Assembly: GCA_019694595.1 (NCBI GenBank)
Contig: JAIBBQ010000026.1
Coordinates: 1-46,906 of the forward strand
From: Myxococcaceae bacterium
Lineage (GTDB): Bacteria; Myxococcota; Myxococcia; Myxococcales; Myxococcaceae
Reading direction: 5' to 3'
DNA length: 46,906 nt
Made by a program: the position numbers and the translations under genes. Within the stretch, counting starts at the first letter, position 1, and the number at the start of each line of letters is the position of its first letter. Shown here one piece after another: positions 19,869 to 29,921 of this stretch. The notes below the pieces were generated by a model. It searched no databases. It was not told the DNA's origin and worked only from the letters and a program-made list of their open reading frames with translations.

Positions 19869-20855
19869 TCAGAACTCCCAGCCAGCGCCGAGCGAGAGGA
19901 GCGCGGCGAGCCGGCGGTACTTGTCCTGCCCCGAGACGAAGTACTCGGCCGCGATGTCCGCCGAGAAGTGGATGTGCTGGTAGGTCAGGCCCGCGCCCAG
20001 GGCGCCGCGCGCGCCGAACGCCGCGCCGAAGAGCGTGCCGCCGAGGGCCACGTACGGCCGGACGAGCGTGTCGGGCAGCGGAGTGAGCCGGCCCTCGAGG
20101 CGAACCCCGGGCGTCGGCGCCACCACGACCATCGCCGCCGCGCCGACCCACCCGGTGAAGACCGTGAAGCTCAGCGCCGGAACGATGGCCGCGTTTCCTG
20201 CCGCGAGCCCCGCGAGGTCGGCCTCTCCGCGCACACCGACCACCGCGTGCCACCCGCCGTGGTCCTTCGGAGCGTCACTCTCGGCCGTGGCGGTCGACGG
20301 CGGCGGCGCCGGCCCGCTCAAGGGGACCACGGCACCACCGGTGCGCTCGGACCACGCGGCGGCGGCCGTCTGGGCCGGCGCATCGGCGGAGATGAGCTCG
20401 CGCAGCACCACGTCCACCGCGTCGAGTGCGTCGTCGAGCGTGCCGCCCTTGAGCCGGGTGCCGGCGCGCTTGAGCGCCGTGCCGGAGCGCGCATCGACCA
20501 GCGCCACGTTGAGGAGCAGCGACTCCCCGACCTTGGAGATGCTGGCGTTGAGCAGCCGGTCCACGTCGAGCGCGCCCGCCAGCTCCGCCATGCAGCTGCT
20601 CGCCGCATCCGAGCACCCGAGCAGCGTGCGCTGACGCTCCATGCCGATGATGGCGCTGACGTCGGCCGAGCTGATCAGCTGGTAGTAGTTGAAGGTGCTC
20701 AGGCGCGTCTGGAGGTACTCGGAGATGGAGCGCGCCGCCGCCGCGTCGATGCCGCTGGATTCCGACAACCCCGGGTACGCGAGCTTCAGCCGCTCGGTCT
20801 TCGGCTGGGCGCTCGCGACACTGCCGACGAGCGCGAGCAGCAGCGCGAATCCCAT
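19869..20855 (-). CDS. Secreted envelope protein with GxERQ-GC motif and C-terminal barrel-like region
   Basis: Read from ATG 20855, preceded by GGAAGG at normal spacing, this is a 328-residue protein with a clear signal peptide (MGFALLLALVGSVASAQ). The first domain (KLAYPGLSESSGIDAAAARSISEYLQTRLST...) contains IIGMERQRTLLGCSDAASSCMAELAGALDVDRLLNASISKVGESLLLNVALVDARSGTALKR, closely matching the protein encoded at 29115-29921. The C-terminal part (VVGVRGEADLAGLAAGN... to AALLSLGAGWEF, ending in Phe) alternates like an outer-membrane beta-barrel. The same frame continues upstream without a stop into the MYXO-CTERM tail of the preceding gene, so whether it is made separately is an inference from the signal peptide and ribosome-binding site. 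Confidence 0.6.
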   Translation of the reverse strand: MGFALLLALVGSVASAQPKTERLKLAYPGLSESSGIDAAAARSISEYLQTRLSTFNYYQLISSADVSAIIGMERQRTLLGCSDAASSCMAELAGALDVDRLLNASISKVGESLLLNVALVDARSGTALKRAGTRLKGGTLDDALDAVDVVLRELISADAPAQTAAAAWSERTGGAVVPLSGPAPPPSTATAESDAPKDHGGWHAVVGVRGEADLAGLAAGNAAIVPALSFTVFTGWVGAAAMVVVAPTPGVRLEGRLTPLPDTLVRPYVALGGTLFGAAFGARGALGAGLTYQHIHFSADIAAEYFVSGQDKYRRLAALLSLGAGWEF

Positions 20856-21009
20856 CGGGACCTTCCGACGCGCCCGCCGAGCCACGAACGCCAGGAAGGG
20901 CAACAGCAGGAAGCCCGGGGCGCTCCCGCTCGAGCAGCCGCAGCCGCTGCCCTGGTCCCAGCCGTAGTGAGAGACCGAGCCTTCAGGAACGCCGGCATCG
21001 GTGGTCCCC

Positions 21010-21235
21010 GCGTCGGCAGCACCACCGCCAGCAGCACCACCCGCTGCGCCGCCACCGGAGCCGCCGCCCGCCGCGCCGCCGCCCGCAGCGCCACCGCCGG
21101 CCGAACCGCCACCCGCTGCGCTACCGCCTGCTGCGCCGCCGCCCGCGGCACCGCCGCCACCGCCCGCCGAGCCGCCACCCGCAGCGCCACCGCCCGCTCC
21201 GCCGCCGCCCCCTCCACCACCGCCTCCCGCGCCAC
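21010..21235. repeat. Gly/Ala low-complexity coding repeat
   Basis: Short imperfect repeats of gccgccacc/gcagcgcca type encode a GGGAAGGG-like linker on the minus strand. The repeat lies just before the MYXO-CTERM tail of the large secreted protein, where a cell-wall-spanning stalk would be expected. Confidence 0.7.
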
Positions 21236-24002
21236 CATCGACACCGCCGTCCACGCCACCGTCGACGCCCGCATCCGGGCCGGCATCCGGCCGCGCACAG
21301 GAGAGTGGATCGCCGGTGACGTTCGAGATGCAGCACGCGTTGAAGTCACACATGCCGTTGCCGCCGCCGCAGGTCTCCCCGCTGGTGAGGTAGCGCGCCG
21401 GACACGCGGTGCTGGTGCCGTTGCAGACGTCGTCCTGGTCGCAGTCGCCGGCCGCAGGCAGACACACCACGCCGGGGCGAATCGGCGTGCACTGGCCCGG
21501 AGGCCCCTGCGAGCCCGCGTCGGAAGAGCACGCCTGGCAGTCGGCCGGGTTGCTGTTCCCGCAGCTCGTCGCGCAGCAGACCCCGTCGACGCAGGCGCCG
21601 GTGGTGCACTGGGCGTTGCCCACGCACGGCGAGCCGACCGCGGTCTTCACCGAGAGCTTGCGCAGGTGCGCGGTGACGCCGCCGCCCGGGCCATCGAGCC
21701 GGTTGTAGACGGCCACCACGCCGGTGGTGCCCTGGGGCGACAGCCGCACCGCGAGCTCGTTGTCGGGGTTCGCCGACAGCACGTCGCCGGTGGAGTCGTT
21801 GCCCACCACCCCTTCCCTGGACACGGTGGTGTACGCGAGGTCGGTCGGGAGGTGCTCCGCCGCCGCGCGCTCCCAGGCCACCACGTACTGTCCGTTGACG
21901 TAGGCCACCGAGGGGTGAGCGTGGTGCCCCGCCATCGGCGAGATGGTGAAGCCGCCGTCGTCGGGGTTGAGCCCTCCGTCGGGGCGGACGAAGACCCCGA
22001 GCACCCGGCGATCGGTCCCCACGAAGTCGTCGAACACCACGAGGTAGTTCGTGCCGTCGGTCGCCACCACGGGGTCGTTGGCAGGCATGCGCTGGGCGGC
22101 GGCGGTGAGGCGCCGCACGGGGTCGAACCCGCCGTCGGGCTTGAAGGCGATGGCCTCCACCCGACCGATGAATTGCTCGCGCCAGGCCACCAGCGCGTCG
22201 CTGCCGCGCGAGGCGATGCCCACGTTGCGGTACGGCCCGCCGCTGAAGGTGCTCGCGGTGGTGGTGAGCGTCAGTCCGCCGTCGGTGAGCACGAACATGC
22301 GGACCGAGTTGATGCCGGTCGCCGCCACGACGTCGTCGCCCATCATCGCCAGGTCCATCGGCGGGATGCCGTAGAAGTTCTGGGGAATCTGGTCGGGCGC
22401 GCGCACCGCGCCGGTCAGCTCGTCGACCGCCCGCAGGAAGCCGTGGTTGGTCGCGGTGGTGTAGCCGACCCAGAAGGTGCCGCCCTTGTAGACGACCCGC
22501 GGGTACAGCTCGTCCTCGTTGGGCGCACTCGAGAGCACGGTCGCGCCCGGCTCGGCGAAGCCGGTGCCCAGGTCGAAGCGACGGAAGTAGAGGTCGCGCT
22601 GGGTCGCCTCGGGGCCAGCCTGCATCCACGCCACCAGGCAGTACTGCACGCCGCAGGCGACGGCGGGCGCCTCGTCGGAACTCTGGATCGTGGTCAGCCG
22701 CTGGTGATGCCGGCGCACGCCGTCGCGGGTGAAGATGGACAAGGCCACGTGGCCCGCCCCGCCGACCTGCGCGAGCTCGCTCACCACCGCGGCGAGCTGG
22801 CCCGGCGACGTGGCGAGCACCGGCGCGTTGCTGTTCGGCTGGAAGTTGCCGCTGTACTGGCGCACCGGCGGAGCGCCAGCATCGGACAGCTCGTAGACGA
22901 GGCTCTGCTGCAGGTCGGGCGTCAGCTGCTGCAGCTCCATCGTCGGCGGCGTGCGCGTGTATGGCTCCAGGCGCCACGCGGTCCACCAGCCGTCGTCGGC
23001 CCCGAGGATGTTGACGTTGAAGTTGTAGAGGTCGCCGTTGAGCCCGCTCGAGAAGTGTTGCCACCAGATGCCGCCGTCGGTCATCGGCGTGCTCACGGTC
23101 TCGAAGTCGTTGACCAGCGCCCCGGCGATGTGGAGCCGGAAGTTCTCGCCTGCCACCATCGTCACCAGTACCCCGCCGTCGGGCCGGGCACCGGCGGTGG
23201 CGAAGTCCTCGCCGGAGTACCCCGGGAGGTCGATGATCTTGAACAGGTACCCGCCGTCGGACAGCGGCACCGCACCGCCGTCGGCATCGAAGTAACGGCC
23301 CACGGTGAACCAGGTGCCGGCGACGTCCACGTACACCATCAGGAAGCGGCGCCCGTCCCACACCACGCGGGGCGGCGTGCGCCCTCCGCCGTGCACCGCG
23401 CGAGCCGGCTTCCCGTTGAACGACGCCCAGACTCCCGAGTTGGTGGTGGTCACCCCCACCATCTCCGCGCCCGGGCCCACCGCCACGAAGGGCACGTTCT
23501 GGAAGCCGTAGCCGACCTGGAGGTCCTTCCCGTTGGGCGGAAAGACGCCGCCGTCGAGCGTCACCGTCGCGGAGAAGAGCGCGTTGCGGTCGGTGCCCAC
23601 GTGGCGCGCGTCGCTCCACGCCACGGTGAAGGCTCCGTTCGAATACGCGACCGCGGGCCAGCCCTGGTCCTCGGACGCGTTGCAGATGGGAAGCCGGTCG
23701 GGTCGAGCACCCCGCCGTCGAAGAGCACGCGCGCGCCGTAGATGTCGCTGCCGCGCAGGCCGTTCGCGCGGTCGTCCGCCCAGACCACCAGCCAGCGGTC
23801 GGGGCCTTGCGCGATGACCGCGTTGCCCTGGCTGAACGAGCCCGGCCCCGTCGGCGGCACGCTGAGCTGCAGCTCGGGCTGCACCACCGCCTGCGCCACC
23901 GCCGCCGGACCTTCGCTCTCGATGCTCGACTGACACGCGGTGACGACGGCGAACGCCGCCAGGACACTCCGACGCATGTGGCCCCTCCCCGAGGAGCTGA
24001 GG

Positions 24003-24008
24003 ACTCTA
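24003..24008 (-). promoter_or_regulatory. Candidate -10 element TAGAGT for the large secreted protein gene
   Basis: TAGAGT lies 25 nt before ATG 23977. The predicted leader of about 18 nt contains GGGGAGGGG as ribosome-binding site. Just upstream CCGTC-N4-GACGG (24009-24022) can form a small hairpin, possibly ending transcription of the preceding gene. Confidence 0.35.
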
Positions 24009-29114: not shown

Positions 29115-29921
29115 ATGCGCACCGTCTCCATCTGCCTCATGCTCTGCGCCAGCCTCGCCAGCGCGGAAGCGCCCAAGCTGGTGGTGCTCGACCTCTCGCC
29201 CGGCGGCGGGCTCGACCCCACCGTGGCCGCGGCGCTCACCGACGCGGTGGCGGCGGCGGCGGCGCGCGGCGGCCAGTTCTCGGTGACCTCGTCGAAGGAG
29301 ATCCAGACGCTGCTCGGGGTCGAGCGCCAGAAGCAGCTCTCGGGGTGCAGCGACGGCGGGGCGTGCCTGGCGGAGATCGGCAGCGCGCTCGGGGCCCGCT
29401 TCATCCTCTCGGGCTCGGCCACCCTCATCGGCCAGAGCTACCAGCTGAGCCTGCAGATGCAGGACTCCGACAAGGCGCAGACCATCGGCCGCGCCACCCG
29501 CCTGGCGGGCGACCTCGACGGGCTGCGCGCGCTGGTGCCTTACGCGGTCGCGGAGGCCACCGGCACCCCCGCCCCGCAGGAGCCGAGCCGGGTGCTCCCG
29601 CTGTCGCTGACCGCCGGCGGCGTGGTGAGCGCCACCGTGGGCGTCTTCCTGCTGGTGCAGACCGCCTCGCAGGTCAGCGTCTACCAGCGCGAGCTGGAGC
29701 TCGGCCTCACCTCGCCCCAGGTGCTCAAGTCGCTCGACTTCTACCAGGACGAGCAGCGCCGCCTCACCACCCAGCGCGTGGTGTCCTTCGTGCTGCTGGG
29801 CGCGGGCGCCGCGCTCGCCGCCACCGGCCTCTTCCTCTACCCCTGGCGGGCCGGCGGCCTGTCGGGCACCGCGGCGCTGGTGCCGACCGGCCAGGGCGCG
29901 GCCTTCGCGGGGACCTTCTAG
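29115..29921 (+). CDS. Secreted/membrane envelope protein, paralog of the 19869-20855 product
   Basis: 268 residues with a signal peptide (MRTVSICLMLCASLASAEA). Residues ~20-150: KLVVLDLSPGGGLDPTVAAALTDAV..., then LLGVERQKQLSGCSDGGACLAEIGSALGARFILSGSATLIGQSYQLSLQMQDS. The GxERQ(K/R)xLxGCSD..C(L/M)AE(I/L) core with two Cys is shared with the protein at 19869-20855. The fold resembles TolB/FlgO-like N-terminal domains that bind envelope partners. Two hydrophobic helices follow (~172-190 and ~223-245). The next gene starts directly after its TAG, so the two form an operon. Confidence 0.65.
   Translation: MRTVSICLMLCASLASAEAPKLVVLDLSPGGGLDPTVAAALTDAVAAAAARGGQFSVTSSKEIQTLLGVERQKQLSGCSDGGACLAEIGSALGARFILSGSATLIGQSYQLSLQMQDSDKAQTIGRATRLAGDLDGLRALVPYAVAEATGTPAPQEPSRVLPLSLTAGGVVSATVGVFLLVQTASQVSVYQRELELGLTSPQVLKSLDFYQDEQRRLTTQRVVSFVLLGAGAALAATGLFLYPWRAGGLSGTAALVPTGQGAAFAGTF

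Follow-up and report, generated by a model that had tools for sequence, protein, structure and literature searches.

A MYXO-CTERM tail followed without a stop by a signal-peptide-like helix: candidate secreted polyproteins in Myxococcota

The window gene and its two predicted proteins

The DNA analysed here (the window, 46,906 nucleotides of a Myxococcaceae bacterium) holds on its minus strand one open frame, GSGCGCSSGSAPGFLLLPFLAFVARRARRK-VP-MGFALLLALVGSVASAQ, in which a MYXO-CTERM tail passes directly into what looks like the signal peptide of a second protein (Table 1). This passage had been noted in the preliminary description, and indeed a single frame runs on to the stop at 19869-19871, the whole stop-to-stop frame (24005..19869, minus strand) comprising 1378 aa. 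The tail scores 25.9 bits with TIGR03901 against a curated cut-off of 20, and in place of the C-terminal position usual for MYXO-CTERM it is followed by 331 further residues in the same frame. The loop RKVP-M closes the MYXO-CTERM and would double as n-region for the signal peptide that follows. Read by eye and by script, the features of a type I signal peptide follow in order, namely RRARRK, then GFALLLALVGSV and the predicted cleavage site ASA/Q, and after MGFALLLALVGSVASA there are 312 residues, beginning with the Q, up to the stop. Two predicted mature proteins thus lie in one chain with zero stops between them, which is the layout of a polyprotein. A GGAAGG said to lie just before ATG 20855 is also present, five bases upstream of it. 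Because the join falls inside a single continuous tblastn segment shared with L032, a locus from another genus (23702..19872, E 1e-164), we regard it as more than a product of chance.

Table 1. Features of the window gene and of the stand-alone relative of its second part
Feature	Position	Strand	Basis or remark
Whole predicted polyprotein gene	19869..23977	-	ATG 23977 in frame -3, the rest in frame -2
Predicted N-terminal signal peptide MRRSVLAAFAVVTAC, lipobox-like	23933..23977	-	Sequence reading; beyond the apparent frameshift
First protein: VVWADDR-type repeat region, Cys-rich stretch, Gly/Ala-rich linker	20990..23690	-	tblastn
MYXO-CTERM: Cys motif, transmembrane helix, Arg cluster	20865..20951	-	TIGR03901
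Short loop RKVP-M, putatively cytoplasmic	20853..20867	-	Contains ATG 20855
Internal signal-peptide-like helix MGFALLLALVGSVASA, predicted site ASA/Q	20808..20855	-	Relatives also have a hydrophobic segment and AxA
Domain 1 of second protein: TolB-N/LpoB/PelC-like alpha/beta	20340..20789	-	Weak DUF3280 match, model comparison
Domain 2 of second protein: predicted eight-stranded outer-membrane-type beta-barrel, protein ends in F	19875..20252	-	Model
Sole stop codon after the MYXO-CTERM	19869..19871	-	Frame reading
Stand-alone paralogue of domain 1, own signal-peptide-like N-terminus	29115..29921	+	Sequence comparison

The 5' end of the gene sits in a different frame from the join, a correction to the preliminary description. 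In tblastn the homologues L032 and L033 match frame -3 on the upstream side of about 23690 and frame -2 on the downstream side, and from this change we infer an apparent one-base frameshift in the assembly at 23690-23702, some 2.8 kb away from the join. Either misassembly of a C run or real damage may lie behind it, so that the window copy could be a damaged one. The likely start codon is ATG 23977, which gives the N-terminus MRRSVLAAFAVVTAC. Lipobox-like signal peptides also open the first proteins of L032, L033, L035, L039, L041 and L042, and such first proteins, having a MYXO-CTERM as well, might carry lipid at both ends. By tblastn the first protein of the window is homologous to those of L032, L033 and L031; it had zero Pfam domain matches, and no NCBIfam model matched it for TraA-type Cys repeats. 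Low-complexity linkers of Gly/Ala/Ser directly precede the MYXO-CTERM in the window (21000-21270) and in its relatives, with different repeat units and high variability among the relatives.

An AlphaFold2 run on an alignment of the window and 34 related sequences returned a model with a mean pLDDT of 83 and a pTM of 0.52, in which both helices of the hairpin formed by the MYXO-CTERM and the signal-peptide-like segment have low confidence (pLDDT ~44-53). The modelled alpha/beta domain (model residues 67-216) compares with FlgT (Z 12.0), TolB (Z ~11) and PelC (Z 10.8), and in Foldseek also with LpoB. The modelled barrel (residues 246-371) compares with OprF (Z 15.8, rmsd 1.9, 116 residues aligned) and OmpW (Z 15.3), and its eight strands within 246-371 and final F are those of an OmpA/OprF-like barrel. 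Scanned against NCBIfam with E up to 1, the second part matched no model, TraB (NF033763) included. The preliminary description had also pointed to a paralogue at 29115-29921, and this is a separate gene on the plus strand with 30% identity to the second part over 174 aa (E 8e-14); the alignment, however, stops short of the C-terminal barrel. TolB-N/LpoB-like (DUF3280-like) domains are plentiful in these bacteria: the genome of the window has 19 matches and one relative up to 30, and the family includes many stand-alone genes of about 270-300 aa.

Recurrence of the join in relatives and across the phylum

With the second part as query (E up to 0.001) we found matches in 37 of 60 related genomes, many of them stand-alone relatives. 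Eighteen loci were taken for reading, mostly around long open frames, and the stop-free join is present in 13 of them (L031-L037, L039-L043 and L046), one being a paralogue within the window's own genome. These loci share the same order: a surface-type protein, Cys motif, helix, Arg/Lys cluster, hydrophobic segment, AxA-like site and second part. For the 11 of the 13 that were aligned, identity to the window from the hairpin to the end is 24-43%. A six-frame scan found no hairpin in L038, L044, L045, L047 and L048, and the same scan missed those of L034-L036. A profile of the hairpin alone gave many more matches in the same 60 genomes, from which 58 further loci were drawn and 56 read (L135 and L136 were left out); several of the 56 reach the contig end before any stop. 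The pooled 70 loci yielded 68 hairpins, with L090 (contig end) and L113 dropped for short downstream sequence; L113 is not a fusion, ending 8 residues past the hairpin match.

Orthologues consistently carrying a stop at the join were not found among the closest relatives. A regular-expression search for two-gene counterparts returned mostly false frames, and only L166 and L193 looked real. At L193:5898-7037 a MYXO-CTERM gene ends in a stop and is followed, after a 3-base gap and in the same frame, by a stand-alone TolB/LpoB-like gene; at L166:2972-3889 a MYXO-CTERM gene, a stop and 45 bases precede another such gene. Both pairs occur in one MAG, whose contig names give low coverage, and both are of a different subfamily in which no barrel was seen; they possibly represent the unfused state.

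The second parts vary from locus to locus, from the TolB/LpoB-like domain and barrel of the window to TraB-like barrel-OmpA proteins, other barrels and a second MYXO-CTERM protein. In L104, L117 and L084 a barrel is followed by OmpA and the best NCBIfam model is TraB, which also matches the shorter second part of L103, where OmpA is missing. All four matches (E 3.5e-26 to 2.5e-71) lie under the curated 700-bit cut-off of NF033763, with the top score, that of L084, at 240.3 bits; these fused second parts are TraB-like, not TraB. L092 has a barrel of the MXAN_2562 family that scores above cut-off, and L035, L036 and L086 read as TPR followed by a barrel-like region, with no NCBIfam model matching the second part of L035. 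Other second parts, such as those of L085 and L116, are Ig/CARDB proteins of about 880 residues with a MYXO-CTERM-like tail of their own at the end. Tandem surface proteins in one ORF with such a second tail were seen in L085, L091, L095, L097, L108, L116 and L134. Small second parts occur in L093, L098, L099, L130 and L132; that of L099, the one scanned, gave no match.

Since the loci above had been chosen as stop-free, we also sampled all 82 TIGR03901 matches above the curated cut-off in five genomes and recorded the distance from each to the next in-frame stop. The stop comes within 0-11 residues in 70/82 and at 15-41 residues in 5/82, and in the remaining 7/82 the frame stays open for at least 326 residues, with nothing between. 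Long run-ons make up 3/19 matches in the window's own genome, 2/18 in G028, 1/16 in G007, 1/13 in G022 and 0/16 in G011, and in all seven a further hydrophobic segment follows the tail, closed by an AxA-like site. Some of these run-ons come from complete single-contig genomes, in two of which the frame was traced to an OmpA C-terminal motif. TIGR03901 had zero matches in 14 control genomes. Chance read-through in a GC-rich genome was considered and rejected, as stop distances are bimodal (0-41 versus at least 326) and known families of second protein continue in the same frame.

A second profile built from 64 hairpins and run on 146 genomes of the phylum (E up to 1e-5) matched 89 of them, a count that includes ordinary MYXO-CTERM tails. 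Among the matches listed, at least 81 are stop-free and reach model position 43 or beyond, in at least about 38 genomes, and at least three reach that position with an internal stop (both by hand count). When 17 loci from this search were read, 16 ran on and one (L333) proved to be an ordinary tail with a stop. The run-on loci extend to other families, to another class (G107) and to other parts of the phylum (G091, G079, G093, G082 and G098), with no clear AxA seen after helix 2 in G082. Genes that join a cell-surface protein to a second envelope protein are often found in myxobacteria and their relatives. The join in the window is real, and it is neither a one-off nor the result of faulty sequencing at this spot: a stop lost or masked by a sequencing error, as the preliminary description had allowed, is contradicted as a local accident by the recurrence of the stop-free join in divergent genera.

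Sites, start codons and selection at the internal signal-peptide-like helix

Of the 68 hairpins, 54 were selected by a profile that contains helix 2 and by absent stops, and the other 14 were chosen for long open frames and themselves built the profile, so the site frequencies and start-codon counts given here are partly selected and the sample of 82 matches is the independent one. Within this set the motif [AVSTG]xA[QED] follows helix 2 in 49/68 hairpins, compared with 535/4362 (12%) background windows of 20 residues taken out of the same proteins. A looser AxA-like site is found in 15/68, among which that of L112 looks lipobox-like, and a canonical lipobox in 4/68 (L096, L118, L125 and L131); in L327 and L331, which are of another family, helix 2 ends in VASGC and AAGC. 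Among members with a lipobox or lipobox-like site, L096 has a VWA domain in its second part, L118 has PD40 repeats and L112 has an RHS piece. As a lipobox would be pointless in an uncut chain, we read helix 2 as a real, cut signal peptide, which can be of the signal peptidase I or of the lipobox type. In 68/68 hairpins the last basic residue lies 0-7 residues from the core of helix 2, a distance so short that a single basic cluster can serve both signals. From the basic cluster to the start of helix 2 there is no ATG, GTG or TTG in 27/68 hairpins and no ATG in 53/68, which argues against an internal start as the general case.

Across the 67-codon hairpin of L103 and L106 there are 15 synonymous differences and 1 nonsynonymous difference (dN/dS 0.022); in this one close pair, the protein is under selection across the join. 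The hairpin of L035 and L036 has a dN/dS of 0.55, rising to 0.97 in the loop and helix 2, and the frame is unchanged. Such looseness is as expected where hydrophobicity alone matters, and is no proof of a signal peptide.

Precedents, proposed processing and its alternatives

Few bacterial polyproteins are known. Signal peptidase splits the FbcH cytochrome b/c1 polyprotein of Bradyrhizobium into two proteins at a signal peptide inside the chain, and viral glycoprotein polyproteins likewise contain internal signal peptides at which signal peptidase releases their products. In both, however, the first protein is without a terminal sorting tag, and FbcH is a single gene family. An archaeosortase substrate with a tripartite tag that is not at the C terminus was reportedly still processed, in work of Abdul Halim from 2017. 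It resembles the window gene in having its sorting tag inside the protein, but it belongs to another enzyme family and another domain of life, and we know of no second signal peptide in it. We are not aware of any description of a recurrent and modular class of polyproteins in which a C-terminal sorting tag is combined with an internal signal peptide.

MXAN_5598 of M. xanthus is a single ORF with a large adhesin region, an internal MYXO-CTERM, an outer-membrane barrel and an OmpA domain; in passages of Guo, Haft and Wall (2025, PMC11980579) it is termed 'atypical' and perhaps a fusion of two genes, with processing and anchoring proposed for its N-terminal part, and 'rare cases' are mentioned. 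An entry in a membrane-vesicle proteome lists it as an OmpA domain protein (PMC4158809). Like the window gene it places an internal MYXO-CTERM before an outer-membrane partner in one ORF; no internal signal peptide or second cut is named in those passages (PMC11980579), and the genes described here go beyond it as a recurrent class with candidate type I or II sites and several families of second part. A motif search found no FtsZ signature near the fused genes L334 and L335, and so we do not call them MXAN_5598 orthologues. The outer membrane exchange pair TraA and TraB is similar in that a MYXO-CTERM surface protein has a barrel/OmpA partner, both proteins bearing a signal peptide of their own. 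In contrast to the genes described here, a stop separates its two ORFs, and the fused second parts score far under the 700-bit TraB cut-off. According to passages of the respective reports, the traA and traB genes overlap by four bases (PMC3325183) and their proteins form 1:1 complexes (PMC12045341). In the literature searched, neither the internal signal peptide nor its lipobox form nor the class as such was found described. A single case (MXAN_5598) and 'rare cases' are already in print, and relative to the literature searched it is the class and its internal signal peptide that appear to be new.

The genome of the window encodes the myxosortase MrtX (L302; NF040593, 304.8 bits against a cut-off of 180), an enzyme that has been shown, both in M. 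xanthus and in E. coli, to cleave MYXO-CTERM close to the C-terminus (PMC11980579), with TraA as a substrate in E. coli. We consider it likely that the window gene specifies a secreted polyprotein from which myxosortase and signal peptidase release two partners in a 1:1 ratio. Ribosomes would translate through the join uninterrupted, the N-terminal signal peptide would export the first protein, and the MYXO-CTERM helix would keep this protein anchored in the inner membrane. Remaining in the cytoplasm, the Arg-rich loop would be MYXO-CTERM tail and n-region of the second signal peptide at once, and the second signal peptide would re-insert and export the second protein. MrtX would then cleave at the Cys motif and send the first protein to the cell surface, and signal peptidase I (or LspA for the lipobox members) would cleave after helix 2, freeing the second protein with its predicted TolB/LpoB-like domain and eight-stranded barrel for the outer membrane; the remaining helical hairpin would be degraded. 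The outcome would be two partners produced 1:1 from one chain, as for TraA/TraB, and fusion of the genes would take the overlapping arrangement of that pair one step further.

Other accounts of the join can be given. The two proteins might normally be separate genes, with the stop lost through an error of sequencing or assembly or through a recent mutation of this lineage only. The window assembly is a draft of 394 contigs, an apparent one-base frameshift lies elsewhere in the gene, and the adjacent pairs L193 and L166 of another MAG do have a stop, but this account is highly improbable given that the stop-free join is found in many genera, in complete genomes and once more, in a paralogue, in the genome of the window itself, that the stop distances in the sample of 82 are bimodal, and that the two stop-bearing pairs are of a different, apparently barrel-less subfamily. 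It is also improbable that one frame gives two translation products by way of an internal start such as ATG 20855, the stop having been lost since read-through costs nothing. The GGAAGG is well spaced from that ATG, so that initiation inside the frame could supplement or replace a product in the window, and some ATG, GTG or TTG is present near the loop in 41/68 hairpins; the 27/68 that lack any start codon there and the 53/68 that lack ATG speak against it, however, and a relaxed read-through would not preserve the frame and purifying selection across the join.

The fusion might alternatively stay uncut, as a tether that spans the envelope from inner to outer membrane, or be cut once, by myxosortase alone. 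The hairpin could act as a stable membrane anchor, and for the published internal tag processing is proposed, in passages of PMC11980579, for the N-terminal part only. In an uncut chain, however, the AxA-like sites of most members and the lipoboxes of others would have no purpose, and the families of second part also have members that stand alone and bring a signal peptide of their own, so that we hold this account to be unlikely. Cutting of one polypeptide by both proteases would fit all of the observations. More broadly, it seems fairly probable that Myxococcota reuse phylum-wide a cassette of about 50 residues, in which a sorting tag and a signal peptide stand head to tail around one shared basic cluster, to build modular genes (a surface protein, the cassette, and an envelope partner or second surface protein) from which two membrane proteases would free 1:1 partners. 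Gene finders and signal-peptide programs that are limited to N-termini overlook the second protein of such genes. If the proposed processing is true, myxosortase and signal peptidase would be testable on one built-in substrate, and the fused genes would reveal which surface protein pairs with which outer-membrane partner, as TraA does with TraB.
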